Below, one piece after another: positions 5,478 to 35,461 of a DNA stretch of 38,379 nucleotides. Positions within the stretch are counted from its first letter, which is position 1; every line of letters starts with the position of its first letter. This DNA is from a virus. Made by a program: the position numbers and the translations under genes. The notes under the pieces were generated by a model. The model saw only the letters and a program-made list of their open reading frames with translations, did not search any database and had not been told where the DNA came from. Location of the stretch: positions 1-38,379 of the IMG/VR virus record IMGVR_UViG_3300042691_055998; one strand, 5' to 3'.

Positions 5478-5508
5478 ATAAAGTGCGCCGTTTTAAAAAA
5501 CACTTTAT
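5478..5508 (+). promoter_or_regulatory. Hairpin immediately upstream of a start codon
   Basis: ATAAAGTG (5478-5485) can pair perfectly with CACTTTAT (5501-5508), with a 15-nt loop, ending 3 nt before the ATG at 5512. It would hide the ribosome landing site of the membrane protein gene. The loop side contains GTGCGCCGT, which can instead pair with 5882-5890 beyond the gene, so two exclusive structures are possible. Function is inference. Confidence 0.4.
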
Positions 5509-5927: not shown

Positions 5928-5944
5928 GATATATAGATAAAAAG
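5928..5944 (+). promoter_or_regulatory. Candidate late promoter (gp14-like gene)
   Basis: GATATATAGATAAAAAG follows the terminator directly and precedes the GTG start at 5953. It matches the motif repeated before other virion genes at 12186, 16100, 17621, 18945, 23162 and 25561. Confidence 0.6.
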
Positions 5945-7968: not shown

Positions 7969-7974
7969 TATTTT

Positions 7975-9118: not shown

Positions 9119-9144
9119 TTTGTCAAAAAGCAAGGTGATGTTTT

Positions 9145-9161
9145 AAATATATACTATAAAA
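9145..9161 (+). promoter_or_regulatory. Late-promoter-like motif before the homing endonuclease
   Basis: AAATATATACTATAAAA lies 13 nt before the endonuclease ATG at 9174, in the short gap after the terL N-part. It resembles the GATATATA late motif. It might drive the endonuclease alone or with the terL C-part; the first base of the motif differs and the spacing to the start is short. Confidence 0.35.
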
Positions 9162-9173
9162 AATGGTATACAC

Positions 9174-12159: not shown

Positions 12160-12185
12160 ATTTCATTTTTTTGGGTTTTCAAAAT

Positions 12186-12200
12186 GAATATATATAAAAC
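12186..12200 (+). promoter_or_regulatory. Candidate late promoter (tail sheath)
   Basis: GAATATATATAAAAC lies 40 nt before the sheath ATG, in the 81-nt gap after terL. Same motif class as at 5928, 16100, 18945 and 23162. Confidence 0.6.
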
Positions 12201-12240
12201 AAAGAGTACTATCAAGAATTAAAATAAAATATTACAACGA

Positions 12241-15200
12241 ATGGCAAAAATTACATTGGACCTGAATCGGTTCAAAGCATCAGGTGTCTATACCATTGAA
12301 TTTGACGCTTCCGAGAGATTGGTGGTGTCTACCCAAACAATTCGTTTAGTGGTTGGGTTTTCTCGAATCGGACCGTTCAATGCCCCCGTTTTCCTAAGGG
12401 ACGTGGCAACCGCTCGCAGAATTTTCGGGCGAATTGATTCCATCTTGGAAGCTCGTGGTTCTTTTTTCCACCGCTCTATCGAAACTTGTTTATCGGCAGG
12501 ACCAATTTTTGCATTGAATCTACTCCCTTTAAATAACGTACCCGTTAATGAGGGTGGCGATGCCGTGGATTATCGTTCTATGGCATTAGCGGCAGACGAG
12601 GAAAACGGAAGCGTTACTCGAGCTTTATACTCTTCCTTTTACAACAAGGAACGTTTTTGGTTTCCCGATACGGATTACCTCCAAGCCACAGTGGATAGCA
12701 AACCTACAAATAGAGGGCGATTATTTAATGTGGTAAACTTGGGGCAACAAGTAGCTAGTTTTATTGTGCGCAAATCTAGCACAGTTACCCAATATAATGT
12801 TACCGCAGAGGAATATTATGGGGCGGATGAAATCCCACCTTATGTTAATCCCCAAGATTATCTTTCCGATTATTTTGTGGACTTATACATCGTTAAAGGT
12901 GATTGGACGAACCTTCCACTTTTATCTCAAGACCCAACGTATAGCAAATACTTTGATTTGCGAGGGATTAAGGCTGACCGTTTAGACCAATTCGTGTCTT
13001 TAGATGGTATCACTCTTTTAGGCTCGTTCACGGGTTGTATTATTCCTAATTTTATTGATAATAACGGTTCAAACCAATCTATCGATACCATTATCAATTC
13101 TAACGTTGCGGTGACGGGCTTTTTCATAAACATTAATGAGGATGCTTTAAGTGATTATGAAAATAGTGTTTATAAAGTAGATATGGTAGGTAATACCCTT
13201 ATCAATACAACAGATGATACTATTGATTTTCTTTCTTATAACACCCCGATTAAAAACGTTCTGTCACACACGGGTCGAAACTCTATCCTATCCAATGAGG
13301 TAACATTAAAATCATACGACCCACTTAGTGGTTCGGTGATGCCTTATATGAAATCGGTAGCTTATGGAAACACAAGTGGTAAATTCTGTAATGTATTAGC
13401 TATACCTAAACCTATCCCAAGCGATGTGACTTTCACTCCCGCACAATGGGAAGCGTTATTGAATGGGTTTAATAACAACTCCTTAATCGAAACTTATGGA
13501 GCGGCTATTGCCAATAGTGGTATTAATGGTTCACCAACCCCTTATGATTTCGTGAAAGTGGCAAATGTGATTGATACGGGCACTGAGATTTTATTACAAT
13601 TATCTACCCCGAACCACACGGATACCAATTACCAGAACAGCTTTTCTACTACCCCCGAGTCCAATTATATCGAGGAGACCTTAGCAGCCTTAGTGCCTAC
13701 GGCGGCTAATACTATTGAGGTGTCTAATTTTACTAATTTAACACCCACACCCAACGATGTTATTTTGGTAGAGGCAGCGGGGTATAGTAAATATTTTTAC
13801 ATCACCGCAGTTAATTCCTTAGGGGCAACCACGGAACTAATCGTGGGAACTCCCCTACCAAGCACCACCTTTTATTTTGAAAAATGGTGTTTGAGTGGTT
13901 TCGCAGCGGATGAATTTTTGGCTTATGTACAACCAAGTGGCATTAAAGTTACTTTATTTAAACCAACAGCGGCGGCGAGTTACTTAGTACCGAACCTTCA
14001 AAGTGCGGGCTTCTCCCTCACACCTACCTTTGGTTATATTCTCAATCCAAGTGCGCAAATCAATAGCGTAGAGGGTTTAGGACAAACCATAATTAATGGT
14101 TCAGAGAATGAGGTGCTTATTTATGATGAGTCGGTATTCCCTGCTTCACTTATCACAGCGGGCGCACCGTTCTATGTGGAGAACCCAGTGGGCGGTGAGG
14201 CGATTGTTTTAGATTCGAGTAATATTGCGGATTTCAGAAAAGTTCGCATTGTGGATTCTATTGGGGACAACCCATTGAATGGTTTAGTGTTGGGTGGTAT
14301 CATCAGAGTGGATTTACCTGGCGGTACATTCTTCCGAGGTGAGGTTTTAGACAACGCTGCTGGTCCTTTAGCGGGTTACAACATAGAAAATGCGGATGTA
14401 ACTGAACTTGCTTATGTCGAGGCATATCCAAATGCTAAATTGAGTACCAATATTAAAGGAAGTATTGTAGTGGATGGCGACCGTGTAAAAAATGGTATCG
14501 GTATCTCACAATTCAATTATTTAAATGTTGACTTACAATGGGGCAAAAGCGGATATACTTATTCTAAAGTGGCTTATGGTTTGAATGGAACTCGTGTCCG
14601 TCAATACACAGATACCCAGTTATTAACAAGGGCTGATGCAACCTACGCTTCTTTGAACAATACTTATATTGATTCTACTATACAAACACCAGCTGTGGTT
14701 GGGGAAACGGTATTTGCCGTTTATTCATCAACAGCCAAGAACATTAGTTCAAATATTGCAGTAGAAAGTCCTGGTTTGTTTGCGGGTGGAAAAAAATTCA
14801 AACTGAATTCCACTAATGCAGCGGCATTGGAGATTGGAGATTTTGTAGTTAACAATGATGCTAACAACCCTAAGCTAACTCGAATCACCTCTAAGGTCAA
14901 GAAATTCGACCCAGCTACGGGTGTGCCTTATTTTGAGTACACAGCTATTCAAATACCTGGCATTACATCAATCAGCGGTATTGACTATATTACTAAATTT
15001 ACACCAATACAGAAATTTGTTGACCGTTTCCAATTCACAGCCTTATCGGGTTTCAAAATGACTGAGTTCCATATGCCTGGCACGCCCGCTCAATTGGAAA
15101 AAATCCTAAGTGTGATTGAAACAACTAACATTGGTGTGACTTTACAATCTAAAGACATCATCCAATACCGTTATATTATCGACACGTTTAACGGAGGATT

Positions 15201-16095
15201 AGAACCTGGTATGGGGTCGAAACAATACTTGAGTCGTTTGGCGAAGAATAGAATGCAGTGTATGGCAATTTTAAATGCTCCATCTATGGCAGAGTTCCAA
15301 GCTAGCACCGACCCTCGTTTTACGGAGTTGCCTGATGCGGCTACGGGAAATCCTAAACCCGTTTTGAACACAGAGTATATCTCTACGGGTGGTAATTTAT
15401 CTTTAGGACCGTCCTTTACTTGGAGTTTGCCCGATGAGGAAAACGGAGCAAAATTTGTTGGGGTCTTTACGCCAAATATCATTCTTCGTGAGGATGGTAA
15501 AAATAAGAGTATCCCACCAGCGGCTCACGTTTCCAACAACTTTGTTCGCAAATTCATCAATGGTGAGCCTTATGCGATTGTAGCTGGACCGAGACGAGGT
15601 GTGATTTCCGATGCCAAGTTTAATGGCTTAGAGTATGACTTCTTGTTGCGTGACCGTGAGTTCTTAGAGCCCATTGGTTTGAATCCAATTACCGTAGTGA
15701 AGAATGTCGGACCGATGATTTACGCTAACCAAACGGGTTATCAAAGAACCATCTCTGCCTTTAATAATCTACACGTCCGTGATTTGTTGATTACCATTGA
15801 AGATGCGGTGATTGATATTCTACAAAATTACTTGTTTGAGTTTAACGATGCCACAACTCGTCTTCAAATTAGAACAATCGTAGAGACTTACTTGGATGGT
15901 GTACGAAACGGGGCGGGTATCTATACTTACTCGGTGATTATGGATGAAACCAACAATACTGCTGAAATCATTGACCAAAACTTTGGTATTATTGATATAG
16001 GAATTGAGCCAGCGAGAGGTTTACAAAAGTTTATCAATCGTATTACGGTGCTCAAAACGGGTGGGATTGCTTCGGGTGGTTTCGCCGCTATTTAA
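12241..16095 (+). CDS. Contractile tail sheath protein (gp18-like), very large
   Basis: 1284 residues, about twice T4 gp18 (659). The N-terminus 'LNRFKASGVYTIEFDASE' and the C-terminal third ('GEPYAIVAGPRRGVISD', 'GYQRTISAFNNLHVRDLLITIED', ending with the 'RITVLKTGG' strand) match the conserved core of myovirus sheaths, which intertwine through their terminal strands. The central part (roughly residues 150-950) is a large beta-rich insertion with many Gly/Ser/Thr/Asn turns, probably protruding domains on the sheath surface. Order terL-sheath-tube is the T4 order 17-18-19. It has its own late motif upstream. Confidence 0.9.
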   Translation: MAKITLDLNRFKASGVYTIEFDASERLVVSTQTIRLVVGFSRIGPFNAPVFLRDVATARRIFGRIDSILEARGSFFHRSIETCLSAGPIFALNLLPLNNVPVNEGGDAVDYRSMALAADEENGSVTRALYSSFYNKERFWFPDTDYLQATVDSKPTNRGRLFNVVNLGQQVASFIVRKSSTVTQYNVTAEEYYGADEIPPYVNPQDYLSDYFVDLYIVKGDWTNLPLLSQDPTYSKYFDLRGIKADRLDQFVSLDGITLLGSFTGCIIPNFIDNNGSNQSIDTIINSNVAVTGFFININEDALSDYENSVYKVDMVGNTLINTTDDTIDFLSYNTPIKNVLSHTGRNSILSNEVTLKSYDPLSGSVMPYMKSVAYGNTSGKFCNVLAIPKPIPSDVTFTPAQWEALLNGFNNNSLIETYGAAIANSGINGSPTPYDFVKVANVIDTGTEILLQLSTPNHTDTNYQNSFSTTPESNYIEETLAALVPTAANTIEVSNFTNLTPTPNDVILVEAAGYSKYFYITAVNSLGATTELIVGTPLPSTTFYFEKWCLSGFAADEFLAYVQPSGIKVTLFKPTAAASYLVPNLQSAGFSLTPTFGYILNPSAQINSVEGLGQTIINGSENEVLIYDESVFPASLITAGAPFYVENPVGGEAIVLDSSNIADFRKVRIVDSIGDNPLNGLVLGGIIRVDLPGGTFFRGEVLDNAAGPLAGYNIENADVTELAYVEAYPNAKLSTNIKGSIVVDGDRVKNGIGISQFNYLNVDLQWGKSGYTYSKVAYGLNGTRVRQYTDTQLLTRADATYASLNNTYIDSTIQTPAVVGETVFAVYSSTAKNISSNIAVESPGLFAGGKKFKLNSTNAAALEIGDFVVNNDANNPKLTRITSKVKKFDPATGVPYFEYTAIQIPGITSISGIDYITKFTPIQKFVDRFQFTALSGFKMTEFHMPGTPAQLEKILSVIETTNIGVTLQSKDIIQYRYIIDTFNGGLEPGMGSKQYLSRLAKNRMQCMAILNAPSMAEFQASTDPRFTELPDAATGNPKPVLNTEYISTGGNLSLGPSFTWSLPDEENGAKFVGVFTPNIILREDGKNKSIPPAAHVSNNFVRKFINGEPYAIVAGPRRGVISDAKFNGLEYDFLLRDREFLEPIGLNPITVVKNVGPMIYANQTGYQRTISAFNNLHVRDLLITIEDAVIDILQNYLFEFNDATTRLQIRTIVETYLDGVRNGAGIYTYSVIMDETNNTAEIIDQNFGIIDIGIEPARGLQKFINRITVLKTGGIASGGFAAI

Positions 16096-16099
16096 AATT

Positions 16100-16110
16100 G
16101 ATATATATTA
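16100..16110 (+). promoter_or_regulatory. Candidate late promoter (tail tube)
   Basis: GATATATATTA followed by an A-rich stretch, 18 nt before the tube gene ATG at 16129. Member of the repeated late motif set. Confidence 0.55.
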
Positions 16111-16128
16111 AAAAAATAAAAACAAATT

Positions 16129-16686
16129 ATGGCAGGTTTACCACATTATAGGAATTCCAAAGCGGCGATGAATCGCTATGAGCCGATATACAACGCTCAA
16201 TTCGAAATACAGTTAACGCCCCCACCAGCGGTATCTGCTTGGTCTTTAGTAATGGAACAAGTACTAAAGGTCGATGGTATCGAAACTAACAAACAACCTG
16301 GTGTTATTGAACAAAAATACAAATCCGCCAAACGTTCATTTGCGGGCGGTATGGTTGATGACACTACAAACGATGTGGCTATTGACTTCGAGGTGAACTT
16401 GGATGATGCCAACTCAATGTATGTGTATAAAGCACTTCGTCAGTGGACAGATTTGATTTACGACCCCTTAACTGGTCGCATGGGTTTGAAGCGTGATTAT
16501 GTAGGCGGACCGATGATTATCAACTTCTTTAACAAAAACGGTGATATTTTCCGTCAAGTAAAATACCCTATTTGTTTCCCCACCTCACCCCTACCCAAAA
16601 TCGAAACTGATTACAGTAATAATGACATTTATCGTATCACTGGCTTCACTTTCCGTTGCGACTACTTTGAAGAAACCATCCTCTAG
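16129..16686 (+). CDS. Tail tube protein (gp19-like)
   Basis: 185 residues, near T4 gp19 (163). The pattern 'YNAQFEIQLTPP', 'KSAKRSFAGGMVDDTTNDVAIDF', 'DDANSMYVYKALRQWTDL.YDP' and 'CFPTSPLPKIETDYSNNDIYRITGFTFRCDYFEE' (quoted in part) is the T4_gp19/phage tube fold, which stacks as hexameric rings inside the sheath. It directly follows the sheath gene and ends just before a strong terminator, so sheath and tube probably form one late unit. Confidence 0.88.
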   Translation: MAGLPHYRNSKAAMNRYEPIYNAQFEIQLTPPPAVSAWSLVMEQVLKVDGIETNKQPGVIEQKYKSAKRSFAGGMVDDTTNDVAIDFEVNLDDANSMYVYKALRQWTDLIYDPLTGRMGLKRDYVGGPMIINFFNKNGDIFRQVKYPICFPTSPLPKIETDYSNNDIYRITGFTFRCDYFEETIL

Positions 16687-16693
16687 AAATGAG

Positions 16694-16725
16694 AAGTGGA
16701 ATCCCTCGGGATTCCACTTTTTTTT
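16694..16725 (+). terminator. Rho-independent terminator after the tail tube gene
   Basis: AAGTGGAATCC (16694-16704), CTCG loop, GGATTCCACTT (16709-16719) and a T8 run (16718-16725). An 11-bp perfect stem. Confidence 0.92.
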
Positions 16726-16743
16726 AAAAAAGTTAAAAGTGAA

Positions 16744-16848
16744 ATGGCAAAAACCAAAAAAACCCGAAAAAGAGAGGGTAATCGAAAAAATAAATTGAAA
16801 AATTTAAAAAGAATCCAACACAATAACGAAGTTTTAAAGAGCTTATAA
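16744..16848 (+). CDS. Tiny, highly basic peptide, 34 aa
   Basis: An ATG at 16744 opens a 34-codon frame ending in TAA at 16846-16848. The product begins MAKTKKTRKREGNRKNKLKN and has about 15 Lys/Arg in 34 residues and no acidic tail, so it would be strongly positively charged and could bind DNA or RNA. It fills the gap between the tube-gene terminator and the next ORF. Too short for family recognition; the low-complexity A-rich DNA means it may be chance. Confidence 0.35.
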   Translation: MAKTKKTRKREGNRKNKLKNLKRIQHNNEVLKSL

Positions 16849-16863
16849 AAAACACAGCCATAC

Positions 16864-17454
16864 ATGAAACATATTGCATTATTTGAGGAATACCGCCAAA
16901 AAATATACGAGTCGTCACATGAGGATATATTTCAAAATATCCATAGGGATGTTCTTTTTCGCTATTTAGCGGAAATAGAAAAGGGGTATATAAATTCTTT
17001 CAAAACCATGAGTGTTGATGAGCGAGATGGAATACAAAATGCGCTTCAAGAAATCAAAAGAAATATAGGAAACAGTAGATACCTATCGAACGATATCAAG
17101 GATACCAATTTTAAAAAAATGTTCATGGGGGTATTGGACGATGCTGGGTACACGAGTGAGATGTTTTACAATGAGTTGTTATCCCAAGTAGAGGATGACC
17201 ATAAACTATTGCGCCAAATCCAAAATCAATTAGAAAGACGGGGCTATGATGCCGAGTATGATATGGAAGACGGGTGTGTGTCGATTGCGGATAGGGTATC
17301 ACCCTCGGTCACTGATGGCGCAGACTATAATCAATTAGTTAAAAAAATTCGAGATGTGTATGGGGTTCTCCAAAATCAATATGGGGGTAAGGTACAAATA
17401 ACAATGAGCTCCTTTGATGAGTGGGTTGGTATCGATATAACTCGCCTAACCTAA
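16864..17454 (+). CDS. Unknown protein with a T4 capsid-targeting-like N-terminus
   Basis: 196 residues, acidic and mostly helical, ending in a beta-rich segment (about 150-196). The N-terminus 'MKHIALFEEYRQKIYE' resembles the short capsid-targeting leaders of T4 internal proteins (for example 'MKTYQEFIAE'), which are removed in the prohead. If real, the protein would be packaged in the head and ejected with DNA. That is inference from about ten residues. No family recognised. It lies between tube and gp26-like genes and is followed by a structured 213-nt gap. Confidence 0.6.
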   Translation: MKHIALFEEYRQKIYESSHEDIFQNIHRDVLFRYLAEIEKGYINSFKTMSVDERDGIQNALQEIKRNIGNSRYLSNDIKDTNFKKMFMGVLDDAGYTSEMFYNELLSQVEDDHKLLRQIQNQLERRGYDAEYDMEDGCVSIADRVSPSVTDGADYNQLVKKIRDVYGVLQNQYGGKVQITMSSFDEWVGIDITRLT

Positions 17455-17532
17455 AGTATACACAGCTACAAAAAAAGACTACCTATAAGCTAAGCAATGG
17501 TAAGGTAGACACATCCCAAACTTAAAAATCAT

Positions 17533-17612
17533 AAATAAACCTAAAACATTTGGACTTTTATCATAAAAGCTATCGAAAGATGGTTTTTTATGGTTGGGGT
17601 GGGTTTATTTTT
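17533..17612 (+). other. Structured intergenic region, possible terminator
   Basis: AAATAAACC (17533-17541) pairs with GGTTTATTT (17602-17610), enclosing a hairpin at 17562-17592 with a GAAA tetraloop (CATAAAAGCTATC against GATGGTTTTTTATG, with one bulge and two wobbles). The outer stem runs into TTTATTTTTC, so it may act as a weak terminator before the late motif at 17621. A competing hairpin CTTTTAT/ATAAAAG overlaps the inner stem. The rest of the gap 17455-17667 shows no gene. Confidence 0.4.
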
Positions 17613-17620
17613 CAACCTAA

Positions 17621-17635
17621 GATATATATACTAAG
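17621..17635 (+). promoter_or_regulatory. Candidate late promoter (gp26-like gene)
   Basis: GATATATATACTAAG, 33 nt before the ATG at 17668. Same motif class as other virion promoters. Confidence 0.55.
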
Positions 17636-17667
17636 AAGAATATTTTTTTAACCTTTAAATTATAAAT

Positions 17668-18648
17668 ATGCAAAACGAACAAAATTTGGACTCCGAAAGC
17701 CTAAAAGAAAAAATCGAAAAGGAGGCACAATTACTTGTAGAGAGAGAAAACAATCAAAACAAGCAGCCAGAAGCAGCTAAAATTACTACATTAGGGACTG
17801 CGGAAAAATTTAAAGTTCATGAAGTGGATGACCCTCTAGCGGCTGAGCTTGGGTGGAAAAACATCCCGATTGATTATTTACCGTCACAAGGTATGTTTTA
17901 TGATTCGGGGACACAAGTGGCTATCCGTGCGGCAACTGTCGCTGAGATACGTCATTGGTCAACTATTGATGAAAATGACTTGATAGGCGTAGATGATATG
18001 CTTAATTTTATTATCGAAAAATGCTGTAAAATTAAAATCCCAGGTCGTGCGGCATCCTTCAAAGACATAAAAGAAATCGACCGCTTTTATTTAATTTTTG
18101 CTATCAGAGATTTTACTTTCAAAAATGGGGAGAATAAACTTTATGTCAATGCAACTGATACCGATGGTGTTACTGATAAAGTAGAGGTGACCAAAGATGT
18201 GATTGATTACTTTAATCCCGATGAAAGGATGATGAAGTATTTTAGTCACGAAGAACGCTGTTTCAAACTCGAAATGAAAAACGGGGAAAAATTTAATATG
18301 TACTTCCCAGGTTTAGGTGTAATGGCTTTTATTAAAAACTACATCAAAACCAAACAACAACAAGGTCAAAACTTTGATAAAGCCTTTATCAAATATGCAC
18401 CATTCTTGTTTAATGACTGGCGGTCGTTAACTCAAGCCACATACGATAAAGCAGTTCAAGATTCTTATGGTTGGTCGGTTACCCGTATTTCGGCATTAGA
18501 TAAATTAGTAGAAATCTTATCGGCTTCGGTAAACCCACAAGTAAAGTACGTAACACCAAGCGGTGCGGAGGTCACCGCCCCACTTAACTTTCAAGGAGGA
18601 GTCAAATCTATTTTCCTTATTTCAGATATCTTTGGAGAATTGGTTTGA
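17668..18648 (+). CDS. Baseplate/tail assembly protein, gp26-like, frame-1 part
   Basis: 326 residues. After a disordered charged N-terminus (about 1-60) comes 'IPIDYLPSQGMFYDSGTQVAIRAATVAEI', 'DMLNFIIEKCCKIKI' and 'RFYLIFAIRDFTF' (quoted in part), the pattern of the T4 gp26 baseplate family ('LPS.G.FY..gt.i.ir..t..Ei'). The C-terminal domain expected for this family ('LxxsElDxMExxRxE') is missing here and lies in the overlapping +1 frame (18563-18913). It sits directly upstream of the tape measure gene, where frameshifted tail assembly chaperones are encoded in many tailed phages. Confidence 0.72.
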   Translation: MQNEQNLDSESLKEKIEKEAQLLVERENNQNKQPEAAKITTLGTAEKFKVHEVDDPLAAELGWKNIPIDYLPSQGMFYDSGTQVAIRAATVAEIRHWSTIDENDLIGVDDMLNFIIEKCCKIKIPGRAASFKDIKEIDRFYLIFAIRDFTFKNGENKLYVNATDTDGVTDKVEVTKDVIDYFNPDERMMKYFSHEERCFKLEMKNGEKFNMYFPGLGVMAFIKNYIKTKQQQGQNFDKAFIKYAPFLFNDWRSLTQATYDKAVQDSYGWSVTRISALDKLVEILSASVNPQVKYVTPSGAEVTAPLNFQGGVKSIFLISDIFGELV

Positions 18649-18913
18649 GGTTGAGTTTCTTCTTTTAAAACTTTTACGCCTTCAGCCAAGCGAGCTTGAC
18701 CGAATGGAGTTCTATCGTGCCGAGATTCTGATGGAGCATTTGAAGGATTGGTCAGAAAAGGAACAAAAACAACGTAAAAAAGAAGAGGAAAACCAAACAT
18801 CATCCATGAATGGTTATGATATGGGCTCTATGCAACGGAACGCCAATCAGATGATGAAAAATTCAACTCCCACCATGCCGTCTATGCCCAAAATGGGTTC
18901 TTTCAAAATGTAA
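18563..18913 (+). CDS. C-terminal domain of the gp26-like protein in the +1 frame
   Basis: The +1 frame relative to the gene above is open across its stop codon (TGA at 18646-18648) and encodes 'NWFEVEFLLLKLLRLQPSEL', 'DRMEFYRAEILMEHLKDW' and a charged, Met-rich tail up to 18913. The 'LQPSELDRMEFYR' part corresponds to the conserved end of gp26-type proteins. It is therefore most likely reached by a +1 shift near 18640-18648; GTT-TGA-G before the stop resembles the CTT-TGA slip site of release factor 2. The ATG at 18563 could alternatively start a separate protein. A sequencing error is possible, but no long homopolymer is nearby. Confidence 0.65.
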   Translation: MRRSPPHLTFKEESNLFSLFQISLENWFEVEFLLLKLLRLQPSELDRMEFYRAEILMEHLKDWSEKEQKQRKKEEENQTSSMNGYDMGSMQRNANQMMKNSTPTMPSMPKMGSFKM

Positions 18914-18920
18914 TCAAAGG

Positions 18921-18944
18921 GGGCTTCTTAGGAAGCCCTTTTTT
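18921..18944 (+). terminator. Rho-independent terminator before the tape measure gene
   Basis: GGGCTTC (18921-18927), loop TTAG, GAAGCCC (18932-18938), then T6. The late motif at 18945 follows without a gap. Confidence 0.85.
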
Positions 18945-18960
18945 GATATATACATAAAAA
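18945..18960 (+). promoter_or_regulatory. Candidate late promoter (tape measure)
   Basis: GATATATACATAAAAA, 16 nt before the ATG at 18977 and abutting a terminator, as at 5928. Confidence 0.6.
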
Positions 18961-18976
18961 TACCATCTCATATAAA

Positions 18977-21900
18977 ATGTCAAATACTGATAGGGTAGTA
19001 CAAAAACTCGACCAACTCCTAAATGTCAATCTAAGAATGGAAAAAATCTTAGAGAAAAAGGACAAAGGTGGTGATGGAAAAGAGGGTAAAACGAAAGATG
19101 TCAAATCTAAAGGTGCGGAAGATATTGAAAAAATAGCATCCTTATCCACATCCATGGCAGAGTTGGTCAATGTCCTATCTACGGCTAAACTCCCCGACCC
19201 CAAAAAAGGAGCACAGTTAGCGAAGTTCGTAGTAAATTTTGCTGAGGGAATTGAGGAGGCAATTAAAAAAATTGATGCGGAGAAGACCAAAGAATTTACA
19301 AAGTTAGTGGAGGTCTTGATGAAGGGCACGGCTACGTTCGTTTTTCAGATGGCTATTGCCGCAGTAGTCACACCCATAGCAATGATTGGAGTTATGGGGT
19401 TCGGTGTTATGATAGTCACCTTAACAAAAATACTGGCCTTCGCTAGTAAAGTAGATAAAGAAACCATGAAGGGAATTGCCGCACTAATGGGGGTGGGTAG
19501 GGGCATTGCCATATTTATGTTGGTAATGGTGGGGTTGACCTTTGTTGCCCCGTTAGTTGCCGCAGGTTTCTTAGTGTTTGCTATGGTGGTCATGGGTATT
19601 GCCCTCACATTAAGGGTGGTAGATATGATTGCGGGTAAAAAAGGATTCGACCCTTTAGATGAAAGCCCCCTTGGGGCGTTAGCTAAATTAGCACGAGGGA
19701 TAGCGTTATTCACACTTACCTTGATTCTCTTAACCCTCACAGCACCTATAATCGCCACGGGGTTCTTGGTGTTTGCCTTAGTTATAATGGGGATTGCCGT
19801 TGTTTTAAGAATAGTTTCTGTTATTGCGGGTGGGGGTGTTAATCCTACGGATAAAGGACCTTTAGGTGATTTAGCCAAATTGGGTATGGGTGTGGCTTTG
19901 TTTGCCGTAACCTTTGTTTTAATTTCCTTTGTCAAAGAAAGGTTTGTCTTAGGGGCACTCGTAATGTTATTAGCAATTGCGGCTTTCGGTTTGGTCTTAG
20001 TCGGTTTATCAAAAATGCTTAGAACGGGAGATAAGCCACTCAGTACAAAGGGACAATTTGATGTGAAAGACTCCGTTACGGGGGGTGATTCATCTGGACC
20101 GCTCGCCGACGTACTCAAATTAAGCAAGGCGGTTTTCATTTTTTCATTAACCGCTATTGGTGTTGGATATTTTGCGAAAGAATTTATTATTGGGTCAGTG
20201 GCAATCGCCATAGGTTTAACCGCTGTGGGTATCGTGGTGGATAAAGTATATGGTTCAGATAAAGTTTTACAAGGCTCGTCTAATTTAAGACACGTATCCC
20301 TTTCGTTAGGTATTTTTGTCGCCGCTCTTTTGGCGTACACATTATTGGTGCAACCAAAACTGACTTGGGAGGGTCTCGGTATGTTAGGGGCAGCCATTGG
20401 GGTTATGGGTCTTGTGGGGACGATTTTGGGGATGCCCCCGATTGATGGTTGGGTTAAAGCTGGTGCTGGGTCTTTAATTGTTTTGGGTGGGGCACTGATA
20501 GTTTTTGCTACTGGATTAGCAATTTATGCTCAATTAGCCGCCCCTAAATTAACTTGGGCAAGTCTCGGAATGCTTGGAGCGGTTATTGGGGTTATGGCTC
20601 TGATTGGAACGGTCTTAGGTATTCCACCCATTGTGGGGTTTGCCTATGCTGGTGCGGGTGTTTTAGTTGTATTAGGTTCGGCATTTTTAATATTCAGTAC
20701 GGGGTTTGCTATTTTTGCTATGGCAGTTAGTAAATTCGACACAATGGAAAAGGTTTTGATGATGGGGGCGACACTTGTTACTTTGGGTGGGTCGCTTGCC
20801 ATCGTGGGTGCTATTGCGCCATTTGTCATATTAGGCTCTGCGGCTATGGCTGTGGCGGGTGTGGCACTAATACCAGTATCAACGGGATTGCTTATATTCT
20901 CTAGAGCAAAATGGAACAAGGAGAATGGTGAGGGGTTAAAGAATGCTTTCCACAGTATCATATTAGGTATGTTTGGCTATGAAAAATTGAGCGATATTGG
21001 TTTAACCGCAGCTGTTTGGATTCCATCACTTGCTGGTTTTCTTTTAATGACATCTGCTGCCTTTGTGGTCGCCGCCGCCGCTATGCTACCCCTTTCTATA
21101 GCCCTCTCCATATTCAAATCAACTAAGTGGAATATGGCAGATAGTCTAAACTTACAGTTTGCCTTGACGGGCATAGCCAATGCATTTGCATCCGTGGCTG
21201 AGGGTGATAAGTGGTTTAAGACCATGTTGGGTATTTTTGGTATGAGGGATGTGGGGGGAACACTCGCCTCGCTCGCTGCGGGTATCCAAGCCATGGCAAA
21301 TATGACCTTTACCGAATATGAGTGGGATGAGACTACTAAGCGATTAGAACCAAAGCGTAAAGTAAAACTCACACCTGCCGATGTCAAAATGGCAGCAGAT
21401 AACGCTGGATATGTAATCAGCGTATTAGCTCAACCCCTAGCTAAATTCGGAGATGTAATTGCAGGTGCATCAGCATCCTCAGACTTTTTTGGAATTGGGG
21501 GCAACAGCATAGAAAAGGGTATTAGGGCGTTGGGTTCTTTGGGTACGGGTTTAGTCTCCCTCGCTTCGGGGGTGCAAGATTGGGCATCTATGTCTTATTG
21601 GGAATACGACTTAGTATTTAACCCTAAATCGGGGATGAATGAACTTAGACCCGTTAAGAAAAGAAAAATCACCCCAGCGGAAATTGAAGAGGCGGTGAAA
21701 AACATCGCAACCACCATCACCGCCATGGTTGTTCCCGTGTCTGCGTTTGGAGTAATGATGGCGGGTGGAAACATCGCTGGAGGACCTTTAGCTATGTTGG
21801 GTCTAACCAAGAACCCCATCGAAAAGGGTTTAGACGGTCTATCCTCTTTAGGTAAAAGTATCGTGTCCTTGGCTACGGGGGTTCGAGATTGGGCAACTAT

Positions 21901-23155
21901 GTCTTATTGGGAATATGGGTTGGTGTTCAACCCGAAAACGGGAATGAATGAGTTACTACCCACAGCCAAAAAGAAATTAACCCCCGATGAAATCAATACC
22001 GCTATTGCTAATATAGCAAAGGTAATGTCGGCGATGATGATACCCGTAGCGGCATTCGGAGCAATGATGGCGGGTGGAAACATCGCTGGAGGACCTTTAG
22101 CTATGTTGGGTTTGAGTAAAAACCCCATCGAAAAGGGAATTGAGGCGATTGGGAATATGGGCAAATCCATAGCTTCCGTCGCTGATGGCGTGCTTAAATT
22201 TGCAAGTATGCAATTTATCGAATGGGATGTTCAAAAAGTTAATGGCAAGAATGAATTAGTCCCTAAAGGAATTATAAAAGTTGATGAGTCGATAATCAAG
22301 ACTGCGGTAGAAAATATTGGTTTAGTCCTATCTGCGGGTGCTCGTGCGGTTATGGACTTTGAGGTACAAACAGGCAGTGGTGGGTTATTTGGAGGGTTTA
22401 CCGATACTTTAATAAAAGTAACAAATATGACCAACTCTTTTGGTAGGGTGTATGACGGAATTCGGAAGATTTTTTCCGATGGTAAAAATCTTGCGGTTGT
22501 GATGGGTAATTTTAAATATTTCTTCGAAAAATTATTTGAACCCTTACAGATTGAAAAAACAATGCAAATGTTGATGTTTAATACGCAATTTGAACGTTAT
22601 ATTACCAATACTAAAGATTTGTCCTCACAATTTAAAAATCTCGATATGAATTTAAGTCCAATGCTTGTTCTAAAGTATGATAATTTTGTATCGATTACGG
22701 AAAGATTATCTAACATAGCTACTCCATTTGAGCGATTTGTCAAATCCTTTGGGGATATGGCAAAACACATGGGGGTCTTCGCCACCAACTTTAAGGTCAT
22801 GGACCCAATAAGTATTAAGGCATTCAAAGATTGGACAGATTCCATGGTTCAAATATCTAAAGTGGATATTGGAAAGAGTGGGGGTATTATTAGCTTTATC
22901 AATGACTCGGTTAGTGCCGCATTTGGAGGTGGTTCTAGTGAGAAGGTTGGGGATAAATCACCACAACAGTACTCAGAAACGGACAAGAAAAACCAAGCGG
23001 CATCCATGTCAAAACCAGGCGAAACCGCAGCTACAGCTCAAAACCAACAGCCCGCCCAAGTGGATACTGAAGCTATTATATCCGCTATCCAACAAGGGTT
23101 TTCGAGTATTACTGTAGAGCAAATGACGGTACTAAAAATGAAAAACAGCTTTTAA
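18977..23155 (+). CDS. Tape measure protein
   Basis: 1392 residues. Charged coiled-coil-like N-terminus (about 1-100), then about 500 residues of hydrophobic helices arranged in repeats ('LGMLGAVIGVMALIGTVLG'-like blocks spaced about 60 residues, and 'PLGxLAKLxxGIALF' blocks spaced about 75), then four repeats of about 100 residues (see 21302-22510), and an amphipathic C-terminal part. Long hydrophobic, repeat-rich proteins in this position set tail length and enter the host membrane. The gene lies after the gp26-like chaperone-type gene, as gp29 lies after gp26/51 in T4. It has its own late motif and a terminator in front. Confidence 0.88.
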   Translation: MSNTDRVVQKLDQLLNVNLRMEKILEKKDKGGDGKEGKTKDVKSKGAEDIEKIASLSTSMAELVNVLSTAKLPDPKKGAQLAKFVVNFAEGIEEAIKKIDAEKTKEFTKLVEVLMKGTATFVFQMAIAAVVTPIAMIGVMGFGVMIVTLTKILAFASKVDKETMKGIAALMGVGRGIAIFMLVMVGLTFVAPLVAAGFLVFAMVVMGIALTLRVVDMIAGKKGFDPLDESPLGALAKLARGIALFTLTLILLTLTAPIIATGFLVFALVIMGIAVVLRIVSVIAGGGVNPTDKGPLGDLAKLGMGVALFAVTFVLISFVKERFVLGALVMLLAIAAFGLVLVGLSKMLRTGDKPLSTKGQFDVKDSVTGGDSSGPLADVLKLSKAVFIFSLTAIGVGYFAKEFIIGSVAIAIGLTAVGIVVDKVYGSDKVLQGSSNLRHVSLSLGIFVAALLAYTLLVQPKLTWEGLGMLGAAIGVMGLVGTILGMPPIDGWVKAGAGSLIVLGGALIVFATGLAIYAQLAAPKLTWASLGMLGAVIGVMALIGTVLGIPPIVGFAYAGAGVLVVLGSAFLIFSTGFAIFAMAVSKFDTMEKVLMMGATLVTLGGSLAIVGAIAPFVILGSAAMAVAGVALIPVSTGLLIFSRAKWNKENGEGLKNAFHSIILGMFGYEKLSDIGLTAAVWIPSLAGFLLMTSAAFVVAAAAMLPLSIALSIFKSTKWNMADSLNLQFALTGIANAFASVAEGDKWFKTMLGIFGMRDVGGTLASLAAGIQAMANMTFTEYEWDETTKRLEPKRKVKLTPADVKMAADNAGYVISVLAQPLAKFGDVIAGASASSDFFGIGGNSIEKGIRALGSLGTGLVSLASGVQDWASMSYWEYDLVFNPKSGMNELRPVKKRKITPAEIEEAVKNIATTITAMVVPVSAFGVMMAGGNIAGGPLAMLGLTKNPIEKGLDGLSSLGKSIVSLATGVRDWATMSYWEYGLVFNPKTGMNELLPTAKKKLTPDEINTAIANIAKVMSAMMIPVAAFGAMMAGGNIAGGPLAMLGLSKNPIEKGIEAIGNMGKSIASVADGVLKFASMQFIEWDVQKVNGKNELVPKGIIKVDESIIKTAVENIGLVLSAGARAVMDFEVQTGSGGLFGGFTDTLIKVTNMTNSFGRVYDGIRKIFSDGKNLAVVMGNFKYFFEKLFEPLQIEKTMQMLMFNTQFERYITNTKDLSSQFKNLDMNLSPMLVLKYDNFVSITERLSNIATPFERFVKSFGDMAKHMGVFATNFKVMDPISIKAFKDWTDSMVQISKVDIGKSGGIISFINDSVSAAFGGGSSEKVGDKSPQQYSETDKKNQAASMSKPGETAATAQNQQPAQVDTEAIISAIQQGFSSITVEQMTVLKMKNSF
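21302..22510 (+). repeat. In-frame ~103-residue repeats inside the tape measure gene
   Basis: The equivalent ATG codons of the 'MSYWEY/MTFTEY/MQFIEW' motif fall at 21302, 21590, 21899 and 22208, that is spacings of 288, 309 and 309 bp. Copies 2 and 3 are most alike: 48 bases from 21755 (encoding 'MMAGGNIAGGPLAMLG') recur identically at 22064. The end of the fourth copy is approximate. Confidence 0.8.
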
Positions 23156-23161
23156 ATTAGA

Positions 23162-23180
23162 GAATATATATAGTAAAAAG
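23162..23180 (+). promoter_or_regulatory. Candidate late promoter
   Basis: GAATATATATAGTAAAAAG, 14 nt before the ATG at 23194 and just after the tape measure stop. Confidence 0.55.
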
Positions 23181-23604: not shown

Positions 23605-23758
23605 AGAATTCGAAGGTGGGTTAGCGGATACCGTTAATTATGTGCCTCCGAAATATTTAGTCCAACCTGCTACGGGGGATACGGGGTTTGCTTTAGTCAG
23701 CCAAGCCTTCCGAAAACAAAAATCCTATTTTGAGCCTAAAATAAAAACACAAAAATAA
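23573..23758 (+). CDS. Small unknown protein, 61 aa
   Basis: The frame is open from 23516, but the first part is the Lys-rich shadow of the overlapping gene; the ATG at 23573 gives 'MSKQKKTLKFKEFEGGLADT' and a sensible 61-residue protein ending in 'QKSYFEPKIKTQK'. It overlaps the coiled-coil gene by 32 nt, suggesting coupled translation. Contains 'YVPPKYLVQPATGDTGFALV'. No family recognised. Confidence 0.5.
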   Translation: MSKQKKTLKFKEFEGGLADTVNYVPPKYLVQPATGDTGFALVSQAFRKQKSYFEPKIKTQK

Positions 23759-23822
23759 AACTTTCCGCCCTTATTGGAATATAAAATCTAAATTAGTTTA
23801 TTCACCATTAAAAAATAAAAAA

Positions 23823-24363: not shown

Positions 24364-24387
24364 ACACTTTTCTTATTTTATGGAACG

Positions 24388-24420
24388 GATAGATTGTCGA
24401 AATTCGGCAATCTATTTTTT
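24388..24420 (+). terminator. Rho-independent terminator
   Basis: ATAGATTG (24389-24396) pairs with CAATCTAT (24408-24415), with CGA/TCG pairing further in, followed by T6. It separates the tail cluster from the sigma factor gene, which has its own promoter. Confidence 0.85.
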
Positions 24421-24489
24421 CCGATGTAACCTTTGTGAAAATAATGCAATAAAAAAATAAAAAAATAGGGAATAATATTTTTATAACAT

Positions 24490-24497
24490 TACCTTTG
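24490..24497 (+). promoter_or_regulatory. Bacteroidota-type -7 element (sigma factor gene)
   Basis: TACCTTTG matches the Bacteroidota -7 consensus TAnnTTTG, 30 nt before the ATG at 24528. The -33 position holds only a weak match (TAGGG at 24466-24470). Position just after a terminator supports it. Confidence 0.6.
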
Positions 24498-24527
24498 CTC
24501 TTTCACATTAAAAAAAACGAAAAAAGT

Positions 24528-25136
24528 ATGTCTAAAAAAACCGCTCAAGTATCTCTCCAATCCTTAGCCTCTACCTTTTGCTCTACAAGAACTGAACGAG
24601 ACTTTACAAAACTTTACGACCGAATCCGACCTGGTGTTTTTGTCTACCTACACAAGTATCTCCCGAATGCAGATGATGTAGAAGATGCCATCTCCCTTAC
24701 TTTTGCTAAGGCTTGGTCAAAAATAGAACAATACGACCCCTACTATCAGTTTAGTACTTGGATATATGGGATTGCAAGAAACGAAGCCTTACAAATAATT
24801 CGGGGAAGAAGAGGTAATATAGAGGTTTCTTATGATGCATTATCCGAATCGAGTTCGGGAATGGAAAAATTTATCGAAACTTGTGAAATAGTCGACCCGA
24901 GTGATTACAACAAAATAGATATTTTATACGAGGCGGCAGTATCCACAATAGAAAAATTACCCAAGACCTACCATTTGGCTTTATGGAAGCGAGAAATGGA
25001 GGGGAAGAAAGAAAAAGAAGTGGCGGAGGAATTAGGGTGGAATTTAATGACGACTAAAACTAGGATACGAAAAGGTCGACAAATCATCAAAAATCACTTA
25101 ATAAAAAATTATGCCGATTTGTGCCACACCAAATAA
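24528..25136 (+). CDS. ECF-like RNA polymerase sigma factor
   Basis: 202 residues from ATG 24528. A TTG further upstream in frame at 24495 lies inside the promoter element and is rejected. Region 2 is about residues 27-95: 'FTKLYDRIRPGVFVYLHKYL', 'DDVEDAISLTFAKAWSKIEQ', 'FSTWIYGIARNEALQIIR'. Region 4 is about 145-190: 'LPKTYHLALWKREMEGKKEK', 'EVAEELGWNLMTTKTRIRKG'. These are the classic sigma2 and sigma4 helices of ECF/sigma-70 factors, with no region 1.1 or 3. It would direct host RNA polymerase to a phage-specific promoter; the GATATATA motif is the obvious candidate, but this is inference. Confidence 0.9.
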   Translation: MSKKTAQVSLQSLASTFCSTRTERDFTKLYDRIRPGVFVYLHKYLPNADDVEDAISLTFAKAWSKIEQYDPYYQFSTWIYGIARNEALQIIRGRRGNIEVSYDALSESSSGMEKFIETCEIVDPSDYNKIDILYEAAVSTIEKLPKTYHLALWKREMEGKKEKEVAEELGWNLMTTKTRIRKGRQIIKNHLIKNYADLCHTK

Positions 25137-25143
25137 CTAAATT

Positions 25144-25542
25144 ATGATAGGGAAAATTTATAGGGATATTCGACTTTGGAATTTTTTGCGCAATCTCAGA
25201 AAAAAGCACGAAAAAACAGTCGATTGGAGTCGGTACAACTTAAGGATGGATTGGGTTGGGCGAATTTATACGGTCTTGAACCCCGAACTACCCTCGGATT
25301 CTGGTGACTCGAAAGAGGTGTTAAAATTAAAGTACACGGAGAGGATACGACCGATAAATATCTACCTCAATTCCTTGGGTATCGGTCCGTATGTTAGCTT
25401 TGCTTGGGATGAGATTCCCGAAAGTGACAGTTATTTAATAGCATACATACCCATGTATGAAATATTAACCTTTGGGCGAATTTTTTGGTTTCTGTTTTTA
25501 TGCACATTTAGTGTAGTTTTCGCCCTTTTTTATTTTTTCTAA
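25144..25542 (+). CDS. Unknown protein with C-terminal membrane anchor
   Basis: 132 residues. The N-terminal two thirds are soluble ('LRMDWVGRIYTVLNPELP', 'IPESDSYLIAYIPMYE'), and residues about 110-132 form one hydrophobic tail helix ('FWFLFLCTFSVVFALFYFF'). A tail-anchored protein with the bulk in the cytoplasm is likely. I recall similar 'WVGRIYTVLN' proteins from other large phages, with no function. It starts 7 nt after the sigma factor stop and is probably co-transcribed from 24490. Confidence 0.6.
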   Translation: MIGKIYRDIRLWNFLRNLRKKHEKTVDWSRYNLRMDWVGRIYTVLNPELPSDSGDSKEVLKLKYTERIRPINIYLNSLGIGPYVSFAWDEIPESDSYLIAYIPMYEILTFGRIFWFLFLCTFSVVFALFYFF

Positions 25543-25560: not shown

Positions 25561-25575
25561 GATATATATTTTAAC
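25561..25575 (+). promoter_or_regulatory. Candidate late promoter
   Basis: GATATATATTTTAAC, 29 nt upstream of the ATG at 25590; same motif class as the other late sites. Confidence 0.5.
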
Positions 25576-26171: not shown

Positions 26172-26465
26172 ATGAAAAGTTTAAATATTCGAGAAAAGGT
26201 GTTAAGCATAGCCTTGGTGTTATTTATCCTCTTGACCTTTTTGCGAGGTTGTGAAAATAGAAGCATTAGAGCTTCTGTGAGTAAACTATCCAAAAAGGTA
26301 GATAGCCTTCAAGCCACACAGATATCTAAAAAAGAAATCTTCAAGGCTTTGACTATTGAGGGGTTGAAAGCAGAAAGGCGAATGATACAATCTACCGATA
26401 GAAAAATTTATGATTTGACTCGTCAAATTGAAATCGACAAAGAACTTCAGAAATTAGAACAATGA
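26172..26465 (+). CDS. Small single-pass membrane protein with coiled coil
   Basis: 97 residues from ATG 26172; a TTG six bases upstream (26166) is also in frame but less likely. Residues about 8-25 ('KVLSIALVLFILLTFLRGC') form a transmembrane helix or signal anchor. The Cys is preceded by Arg-Gly, which is a poor lipobox, so lipidation is doubtful. The rest is charged and heptad-like. The shape (N-terminal anchor plus periplasmic helix) resembles inner-membrane spanins, but a partner is not clear. Its stop overlaps the next start (ATGA at 26462). Confidence 0.6.
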   Translation: MKSLNIREKVLSIALVLFILLTFLRGCENRSIRASVSKLSKKVDSLQATQISKKEIFKALTIEGLKAERRMIQSTDRKIYDLTRQIEIDKELQKLEQ

Positions 26466-27256
26466 AAAAAGAAAGAGTAATTCAATATTCTATCATTGGA
26501 ACTTTTGTGTCCTTGTATATTATTGTGAGTATTATATCCACAATACACGTGATTGATTTTTTTAGGTTGAGTAACCCAGATTGGTTGGCAATTTCTTTAG
26601 CGATTGCTTTCGAAATTGGGGCAGCCGCATCGCTCGCATCTTTAATCGCTTTAGATAAAATGAATAAGACTCTTATATGGGTCTTATTCATTATTTTAAC
26701 TTTAATGCAGATGATGGGTAATGCCTACTATGCGTATGTTCATTTAGATAAATATCAAGCTTGGGTTGAGTTGTTTGGGTTGGTGGAGGAAGAACCAATC
26801 ACCCAAAAAAGAATCTTGGCTATTATTAGTGGGGCTATATTACCAATTGTTGCTTTAGGGTTCATTAAATCTTTGGTGGATTATATCAAACCAAGTAAAA
26901 ATATCGAACCGACCCCAAAAGTGGACACACTCACCGAACCGAAATTAACACCAAACAAGGTAGTTGATGACCAACCACCCTTTAATGAAATATTTATAGA
27001 TGAGGAAGAGGAGTCGGAAATTTCTGAGGAGGATTATAAAGAATACATCCGTCAATATGTAAGTGAACTTGGTTTGGATAAAACTTACAGCGGCGTGGAT
27101 ACCCAAGATATGAAAATTACACAAAACGAGGTTACTGAAAGCGAACCTAAAGAGGTGATACAAGTTACTGAACACGAAACGGAACAAGATTCCATAGAAG
27201 AAACAGTACAATCATCACAAACCATGCACCCACAGATACGACCTGGTGTCAATTAA
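26462..27256 (+). CDS. Multi-pass membrane protein with acidic tail
   Basis: 264 residues. Four hydrophobic helices: about 9-30, 40-62 ('WLAISLAIAFEIGAAASLAS'), 69-90 ('LIWVLFIILTLMQMMGNAYY') and 118-138 ('ILAIISGAILPIVALGFIKS'). The remaining ~120 residues are acidic and probably disordered in the cytoplasm. ATGA overlap with the upstream gene indicates coupling, and the pair may act together. From memory similar membrane proteins occur in other Bacteroidota phages; function unknown. Confidence 0.65.
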   Translation: MKKERVIQYSIIGTFVSLYIIVSIISTIHVIDFFRLSNPDWLAISLAIAFEIGAAASLASLIALDKMNKTLIWVLFIILTLMQMMGNAYYAYVHLDKYQAWVELFGLVEEEPITQKRILAIISGAILPIVALGFIKSLVDYIKPSKNIEPTPKVDTLTEPKLTPNKVVDDQPPFNEIFIDEEEESEISEEDYKEYIRQYVSELGLDKTYSGVDTQDMKITQNEVTESEPKEVIQVTEHETEQDSIEETVQSSQTMHPQIRPGVN

Positions 27257-32899: not shown

Positions 32900-33232
32900 A
32901 TGAAAACGAAAAAAGAAAACGATTCGTATAAGGAAAGTGTGTCTCGCCTAAAAGAGGCAATTCAAAATATAGAATTGATTCGTGAAGACCCGAAACCATC
33001 TGTGTCTATTGAAAAAATTCCTTTCGAGGAAAGCTCCTTTGCGCATCAAAAAAATAAAAATCATCTTGATTTTCAAGAGACCCTCAATCTTGGTCATATT
33101 CGCTCTGCCTTAGTTTGTTTGGATGAGGTGGTCACCACGGACACCGTTTTACACGCAAGAATTTTAAATGTGATGTCCATTCTGAAAACTATTGATGCCG
33201 ATTGGCATATAAAAATAAAATTAAATGACTAA
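32900..33232 (+). CDS. Unknown protein, 110 aa
   Basis: 110 residues, charged and helical, with a disordered N-terminal half and 'GHIRSALVCLDEVVTTDTVL' in the second half. No motif recognised. Its end overlaps the UV endonuclease gene by 8 nt, indicating one operon from the promoter at 32558. Confidence 0.55.
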   Translation: MKTKKENDSYKESVSRLKEAIQNIELIREDPKPSVSIEKIPFEESSFAHQKNKNHLDFQETLNLGHIRSALVCLDEVVTTDTVLHARILNVMSILKTIDADWHIKIKLND

Positions 33233-34183: not shown

Positions 34184-35449
34184 ATGCAAAACAAGGATGT
34201 GAATAATTTTGATTCCTATTTCCAAAATCCCATTGCGGCACAATTATCTACGGGGGGTCGTAGTCGAATATTATCCACCCCCGAGGAAAAAATTATTTGT
34301 TTAAGTGAAATTGGGACTTTAGATATCGAACCACATAGTGCTTCGGGGTGTCGAATTGATGCTAATAAATTCAAAGTCATCTTAACTCAAGATGGGTGGA
34401 CTTGTCGAAGGGTTGCTAATAATTTATACTTTGACTTGGAGAGTGTAGTCACGGACTCCACAGTGGAGATTTGGTCGCATCCAGAAAAGAAATTACTGAT
34501 GTTGCTATCAATTAATAATTTGTATGTTAAAAACAACATACCGATTGATATGGGGTTTGAAACCAATTACCTAGACTTGGGTTCACAGAATCAACAATTA
34601 AAACATCCCATCATCACCACTTGGGATATGTACCACCCCGTTCAGTTGCGTTTAGAATTGCATGATTACATCAATCACTTAATTGGTGTTATGAAAGAAC
34701 TGCATGATATCCCCTCCAAAGAATCTATGATTGGTATCATCTCCCATGATGGGAACAGTTTTTATGTCAAATCCTTTTCGTTGGCGGGAAAAATACCTCA
34801 ATTTATTCATGTAGATGAACACTACGGGGAGGGGTTTGCGGCATTTCACGATAAAATGTTGGGGCGAATCCGCACCGAAAACAAAGGTCTGATTTTATTC
34901 CACGGGGAGCCAGGTACGGGCAAAACCCAATATATTCGAATGCTGTTAGACCAATTAACCAAAACGAACAAGAGTATTTTATACGTTCCACCAGGGTTTT
35001 CCGACCAACTCACCGACCCCACTATGATTGAGTTTATTAGTGAGTGGGTTTGGGAAGAAGACCGAGATTGTATTTTATTAATTGAGGATGCTGAGCCTTT
35101 ATTAGAAACGAGGAACGGGTCAGATGGTCGCAGTACGGGTATTAGTAACCTATTGAATATGACCGATGGGATTCTAAATGATATGTTAGGCTTAATGGTT
35201 ATAGCTACATTTAATACTAGTTTGTCGAAAATAGATAGTGCCCTATTACGCCCCCAACGTTTAATTGCTCGCAAAGAATTTGGGCGAGCGAATAAAGAAC
35301 AAGCCCTAAAACTTGCAGAAGCCTTGGATATGCCGCTACCCGAAATAGACTACCCCGCCACTTTGGCTGAATTTTACTCCCACAAAAAAGGTCAAGATAT
35401 CCTATTTCATTCCGTACATGAAGAAAGAAAAATCGGATTTCTCAAGTAA
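34184..35449 (+). CDS. AAA+ ATPase of unknown role
   Basis: 421 residues. Residues 1-230 are a beta-rich N-terminal part without a clear match. The ATPase domain has Walker A GEPGTGKT (241-248), Walker B 'CILLIEDAEP' (Glu301/Asp302), a sensor-type 'ATFNTS' and 'LLRPQRL' with arginine-finger placement. The layout recalls BCS1/FtsH-like classic AAA proteins; similar ATPases occur in large T4-like phages. It could remodel protein complexes or membranes. Starts 38 nt after uvdE; the spacer includes a poor match to a host promoter (TACTTACCTTC). Confidence 0.75.
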   Translation: MQNKDVNNFDSYFQNPIAAQLSTGGRSRILSTPEEKIICLSEIGTLDIEPHSASGCRIDANKFKVILTQDGWTCRRVANNLYFDLESVVTDSTVEIWSHPEKKLLMLLSINNLYVKNNIPIDMGFETNYLDLGSQNQQLKHPIITTWDMYHPVQLRLELHDYINHLIGVMKELHDIPSKESMIGIISHDGNSFYVKSFSLAGKIPQFIHVDEHYGEGFAAFHDKMLGRIRTENKGLILFHGEPGTGKTQYIRMLLDQLTKTNKSILYVPPGFSDQLTDPTMIEFISEWVWEEDRDCILLIEDAEPLLETRNGSDGRSTGISNLLNMTDGILNDMLGLMVIATFNTSLSKIDSALLRPQRLIARKEFGRANKEQALKLAEALDMPLPEIDYPATLAEFYSHKKGQDILFHSVHEERKIGFLK

Positions 35450-35461
35450 ATATATATAGAG

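Follow-up and report, generated by a model that had tools for sequence, protein, structure and literature searches.

Which promoters does a sigma factor encoded by a huge phage serve, and where does it stand in the order in which the phage genes are transcribed? We addressed this question in a 38,379-base IMG/VR virus record, analysed over its whole length and called the window below; it is an incomplete genome, so the absence of a gene from it means little. The preliminary description of this DNA had reported sigma2 and sigma4 signatures in a 202-residue protein encoded behind a terminator and a host-type promoter, and had proposed that host RNA polymerase makes this factor, which then switches transcription to GATATATA promoters in place of the gp55-type late factor usual in T4-like phages.

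The sigma factor gene and its surroundings

The gene lies at 24528-25136 (+ strand, ATG start), and both signatures were confirmed by Pfam matches above the cut-offs, Sigma70_r2 at residues 29-95 (E 1.3e-13, 51 bits against a cut-off of 24) and Sigma70_r4_2 at residues 138-185 (E 6.5e-9, 35.7 bits against 25.7). The protein is also matched by PHROG 1740, 'RNA polymerase sigma factor' (E 1e-19), its best PDB match is E. coli sigma-E (1or7, E 4e-12), and its AlphaFold model, in which two well-predicted helical domains flank a low-confidence linker (residues ~95-125), retrieves mostly ECF sigmas from the PDB. Having sigma2 and sigma4, neither sigma1.1 nor sigma3, and a length of about 200 residues, it is, as judged from its sequence, a genuine phage ECF (group IV) sigma factor; its sigma4 region and its match to PHROG 1740, not 234, set it outside the T4 gp55 late sigma family. 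Among the 25 NCBIfam models listed, the superfamily model TIGR02937 was the sole one passed (63 against 42.9), and neither Sig70_bacteroi1 (TIGR02985, 76 bits against 126) nor the SigW equivalog (77.5 against 209) reached its cut-off.

Sequence similarity identifies the 38-kb window as a piece of a huge phage related to LR756500 and the Lak megaphages. The nearest match of its tail sheath and large terminase is LR756500 (462 kb), followed by genomes of 635-735 kb, and the sheath further matches Lak megaphages, Flavobacterium phage MaF61 and the Tenacibaculum phages pT24 and PTm1. The 'Mahaphage' clade gathers genomes >634 kb, with Bacteroidetes hosts predicted as for Lak (PMC7162821). All 40 window genes of at least 80 aa in the gene set analysed lie on the + strand, and collinearity with LR756500 spans the genes from 5953 to 23155. 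The ECF ortholog of LR756500 (146,207-145,446; 30% identity, E 7e-21) is positional, the gene order being preserved, and is followed, as in the window, by homologs of the genes at 25144 and 26462. This collinearity marks the ECF gene as an old syntenic phage gene and not a fresh import. A single-protein scan of viral contigs for ECF relatives gave no matches and an alignment-based scan gave 67 loci. Recent capture from a host was rejected, the phage ECFs being mostly separate from 80 sampled cellular ECFs in a tree whose deep nodes are weak, and poor around the window, and whose cellular sampling was pattern-biased; the node surrounding the cellular set (0.95) also includes four phage proteins.

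Several further features of these genomes were recorded. The large terminase of the window (8624-12159) is encoded in two ORFs, 8624-9118 and 10282-12159, that enclose gene 9174, an order identical in LR756500. The gene at 2725-3627 matches beta-glucosyl-HMC-alpha-glucosyltransferase (PHROG 842, 2.4e-62), which suggests that this phage may carry glucosylated modified bases, and inverted repeats with a common CGTTTTAA loop lie at ~114-150, ~410-445 and ~5480-5512, upstream of genes 178, 480 and 5512. The ECF proteins of LR756500 (L010) and LR756501 (L025) carry an insertion of 50-100 aa within the sigma4 helix-turn-helix region, ahead of the recognition helix, and LR756500 encodes two sigma70-like, two ECF-like and one gp55-type factor (L008-L011, L038).

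Seven nucleotides after the sigma gene lies a gene for a 132-aa protein with a C-terminal TM helix (25144-25542, + strand). The linkage of the sigma gene with this gene and with that at 26462 is kept in the window, in LR756500 and in marine relatives, as might suit an envelope-sensing pair in which these membrane proteins hold the ECF as anti-sigma partners. We regard such a pair as extremely improbable: in LR756500 the 25144 homolog belongs to another unit, one with a late box, and in the marine phages it is 2-5 kb distant, and the fold predicted for the 25144 protein is mixed alpha/beta (mean pLDDT 71, moderate confidence), not an anti-sigma helical bundle, and thus does not support its candidacy as an anti-sigma factor, a partner that ECF sigmas commonly but not always have. 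The gene at 26462-27256 encodes four hydrophobic stretches, and its linkage to the ECF gene recurs in several lineages; the N-terminal 145 aa of its product are 76% identical to LR756500, its only match in the phage collection, compared with ~42% for the terminase.

The terminator described before the sigma gene is there: the segment 24383-24425 folds with -17.9 kcal/mol (z -5.3) and has a T run, and the intrinsic terminator within it (24386-24421, + strand) isolates the sigma unit from the genes upstream. A simple consensus terminator scanner missed it. The host-type promoter held in part. Position 24490 is not the start codon but opens a TACCTTTG box (24490-24497, + strand) that resembles a host-type (Bacteroidota -7) promoter and lies 30 nt before the ATG, but no TTG/-33 box was found beside it, and TAnnTTTG is not enriched upstream of the window genes (3 seen against 1.7 expected; 3 against 0.29 for the narrower TAnCTTTG). 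The letters of TACCTTTG are not conserved in the orthologs; what the marine relatives have is a TAnnTTTR-like box about as far from the ATG.

In those marine relatives the ECF gene is likewise under a non-late promoter, an element that we term class 2, TTATATT(A/T)(A/G)TA(C/T)TATAA. Twelve copies lie upstream of genes of the marine phage G004, and the other genes so preceded look early-type by eye. We read class 2 as a host-type early class; alternatively, it could reflect autoregulation, with the ECF itself reading class 2 as an early/middle class. That the G004 elements precede the ECF gene together with about a dozen early-type genes would agree with autoregulation, yet the window has 0 matches to class 2, and the element fits the host TAnnTTTG family by the position of its TAnnTTTR-like box, at an ATG distance similar to that of TACCTTTG in the window, and by the spacing of this box to a T-rich box, similar to that in Lak TATCTTTG promoters; we consider autoregulation very unlikely. 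No promoter of the AAAC-N16/17-ATATAA class described below precedes the ECF gene itself. The sigma gene stands in its own non-late transcription unit, plausibly read by host polymerase as the preliminary description had it, and the marine relatives share a similar arrangement.

Two other promoter-region motifs were seen at related loci. In Lak (L015, L016) a strongly conserved host-type promoter, a T-run followed by TGTG-TATCTTTG, lies upstream of several genes, and at ECF loci of the LR756502/LR745206 clade (e.g. L066, L076, L080, L082) a repeated AACGGCAA motif adjoins the ECF start codon.

Late boxes and the gp55-type factor

The GATATATA promoters are a real, non-random promoter-like class in the window, with 8 occurrences of [GA]ATATATA in the 70-nt stretches ahead of gene starts against 0.29 expected. 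The box GATATATA is found at 5928-5935, at 16100-16107 before a tail tube-like gene, at 17621-17628, at 18945-18952 directly after a terminator and at 25561-25568, where it opens the unit after the sigma unit; the late-type box AATATATA is found at 9146-9153, at 12187-12194 before the tail sheath, at 23163-23170 and at 35449-35456, all on the + strand. Enrichment of the same late box upstream of genes recurs in LR756500, LR756502, LR756504, LR745206, LR756501 and the marine relatives. The -35 position carries no information across 146 non-redundant sites, which is what late promoters of the gp55 type should show.

Proteins of gp55 type, ~120-135 aa long and with sigma2 alone, are encoded in LR756500, LR756502, LR756504, LR745206, Lak, pT24 and others, and an improved gp55 model adds LR756501, the marine phages G001, G003 and G004 and several more. 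The search for a gp55 homologue that had been called for gave no PHROG 234 match in the 38-kb window, the rest of the genome lying outside the record, but did find the factor in ECF-bearing relatives whose genomes are complete or large. These relatives have both factors; replacement of gp55 by the ECF was rejected for that reason, and 'ECF instead of gp55' is the wrong contrast. In pT24 and PTm1, moreover, a gp55-type factor is present, no Sigma70_r2 protein was found, and TATA-type boxes are enriched (TATAAATA in pT24, 6 against 0.5; ATACATA in PTm1, 11 against 0.8), so that the late box goes with gp55 and not with the ECF; T4 is a further phage with TATA-type late boxes and no ECF.

The proposal that the ECF is itself the late factor recognising GATATATA could draw on the reality of this class in a window that holds no gp55 gene, and the missing -35 element alone is not decisive, since the ECF-like gp36 of phiEco32 is reported to read a single TATA-like motif, tAATGTATAtA (PMC4281155). 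Set against the gp55-type factor of the ECF-bearing relatives, the late boxes of phages that do without an ECF and the separate, bipartite promoter class that the ECF does track, the proposal was not upheld, and we judge it quite unlikely. We therefore assign the late boxes to the gp55-type factor.

The gp55-type gene of Lak (L039 in Lak-B2, L041 in Lak-C1) contains three in-frame TAG codons, which are recoded in Lak, and the ECF-like gene L024 contains zero, a contrast that fits expression of the ECF before, and of gp55 after, a switch of genetic code.

A bipartite promoter class that accompanies the ECF gene

A k-mer lead, GAAACAA, in G004 (205 kb, encoding an ECF ortholog and gp55) resolved into GAAAC-N16-ATATAAT, found 12 times at spacer 16 against 0.2 expected, once at 17 and never at spacers 10-15 or 18-21. 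When sites with up to one mismatch were pooled from G004, LR756500 and the marine loci, 46 lay within 45 nt of an ATG, with spacers of 16 (42 sites) or 17 (4 sites) and none of 15, the first base of the GAAAC-type element being G, T or A. We then counted AAAC-N16/17-ATATAA, termed class 3 below, within 45 nt upstream of ATG codons and used shuffled sequences as the control. There were 3 sites in the window against 0.01 expected (0/400 shuffles), 23 in G004 against 0.40, 29 in LR756500 against 1.07, 22 in LR756504 against 1.07 and 20 in Lak-B2 against 0.67. Among phages with no canonical ECF, pT24 had 1 site (0.20 expected), PTm1 0 (0.33 expected) and MaF61, whose divergent sigma-like protein is sub-threshold only, 0 (0.00 expected). 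G004 was the discovery set, and LR756504, Lak-B2 and these three negatives were examined afterwards. LR756502, LR745206 and LR756501, represented by 44-kb pieces that are too short to judge, had 3, 1 and 2 sites. The stricter GAAAC-N16-ATATAA shows no excess in LR756502, LR756504, LR745206, LR756501 or Lak, and class 3 emerged in LR756504 and Lak only once AAAC was combined with spacers 16/17; the preference for spacer 17 in Lak-B2 and in all three window sites is post hoc and had not been predicted. Class 3 is thus abundant where a canonical ECF is encoded and absent where it is not, across ~8 genomes and uncorrected for their shared ancestry.

A characterised ECF sigma uses a GGAACA -35 element, and ECF sigmas demand a rigid spacer (PMC6411747); with its GAAAC -35 and rigid spacer, class 3 looks like an ECF promoter. 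From this anatomy and the co-occurrence we infer that the ECF recognises AAAC-N16/17-ATATAA. Another factor, be it the host sigma, a phage activator or a second phage sigma, might instead read class 3, with the ECF mainly reprogramming host genes or acting elsewhere: Lak, LR756500 and LR756504 encode additional sigma factors that could do so, and co-occurrence and anatomy are what ties the ECF to these sites. The marine phages G001-G004, G019 and G021, on the other hand, encode exactly one Sigma70_r2 protein each, the ECF, so that a second phage sigma with a domain for reading the -35 is not in view in these phages; class 3 is missing from the Tenacibaculum phages, whose hosts are Bacteroidota and which have no ECF; and the class 3 -35 resembles known ECF -35 elements. 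We hold reading by another factor to be unlikely, and favour the ECF.

Genes behind class 3 promoters

Three predicted ECF-type promoters of the window, all AAAC-N17-ATATAA on the + strand, precede the clamp-loader gene (1339-1365), gene 23823 (23758-23784) and the UvdE UV-endonuclease gene at 33225 (33186-33212); a fourth match, at 2506, is intragenic. The clamp loader subunit (1399-2352, + strand) is T4 gp44-like (PHROG 168, E 1.3e-64). Its G004 counterpart (PHROG 168, 1.2e-71) also lies directly behind a class 3 promoter, and that of LR756500 is the second gene of a class 3 unit. Other G004 genes so placed encode a glycosyltransferase, a small protein matching a phosphofructokinase-labelled PHROG and another small protein whose LR756500 ortholog is histone H1-like Hc1. 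A 247-aa class 3 product of G004 was clamp-like by eye, an identity unsupported by Pfam, PHROGs, PDB or hhalign against T4 gp45. A conserved regulon was rejected as well: only 5 reciprocal-best-hit genes have the promoter in both genomes, against 2.2 expected, so the class 3 regulon is fluid.

The gp55-type gene itself stands directly behind a class 3 promoter in G004, G003 and G001 (in G001 with different flanking letters), and these placements support a step from the ECF to gp55 in marine lineages. In Lak-B2 a candidate site at the gp55 gene overlaps an AT-rich inverted repeat, and no close site was found at this gene in LR756500, LR756504, LR756501 or G017, so the link is not universal.

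We consider it likely that the ECF redirects host core RNA polymerase to middle promoters of the form AAAC-N16/17-ATATAA(T), acting between the host sigma and the gp55-type late factor. The sigma gene would be transcribed early by host holoenzyme from its host-type promoter; the ECF, with host core polymerase, would then turn to the class 3 promoters, which would serve replication and repair genes (in the window, clamp loader and UvdE) as well as the gene for the gp55-type late sigma in the marine relatives; and the gp55-type factor would read the -35-less [GA]ATA(T/A)ATA late boxes. The direction of this relay, from host sigma through ECF to gp55-type factor, and its timing are our reading of the promoter classes. 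For Lak/Mahaphage-related T4-like giants of Bacteroidota at large, the chances seem about even that they share such a three-tier relay, with the ECF in the place of MotA/AsiA of T4 and, in some lineages, directly activating the late sigma gene.

If this scheme holds, an ECF sigma would act as the switch for middle genes, one step ahead of a late factor of T4 type. For Lak and the 460-735 kb relatives, the largest phages known, no transcription programme had been worked out in the literature searched; the present analysis defines promoter classes, names a candidate factor for every one of them and supplies short DNA templates for testing the scheme.

In T4, which has no ECF, the middle class is read by host sigma70 with MotA/AsiA. 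The relatives of the window resemble T4 and its gp55/gp33/gp45 system in encoding a sigma2-only gp55-type factor and having -35-less TATA late boxes (PMC2988020). The ECF-like gp36 of phiEco32, SU10 and 7-11 is made from a host-type promoter and directs transcription from middle as well as late promoters of the phage (PMC4281155, PMC4331800). The likeness lies in a phage-encoded ECF-like sigma and in the probable host-type promoter of its gene; in phiEco32 one sigma with one motif covers middle and late genes, whereas the ECF discussed here would use a bipartite promoter and leave the late genes to a gp55-type factor. An earlier survey (Iyer et al. 2021, PMC7824862) described two sigma types, one minimal and one fuller, in 'group 2' jumbo phages, which include Lak and PTm1; in the part of that paper drawn on here the two types are not assigned promoter classes or a regulatory order. 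The 'RNA polymerase sigma-W factor' of crAss-like phages is likewise an ECF-like protein of gut Bacteroidota phages (~24-28% identity), but the 50 kb of cr4_1 tested showed no class 3 promoter. The crAss-like phages bring along their own RNA polymerase. In the SPO1-type cascade the host sigma serves early genes, a phage sigma (gp28) middle genes and another (gp33/34) late genes. The order proposed here, from host sigma to middle phage sigma to late phage sigma, is the same, with sigmas of other types and in a T4-like/Mahaphage background.
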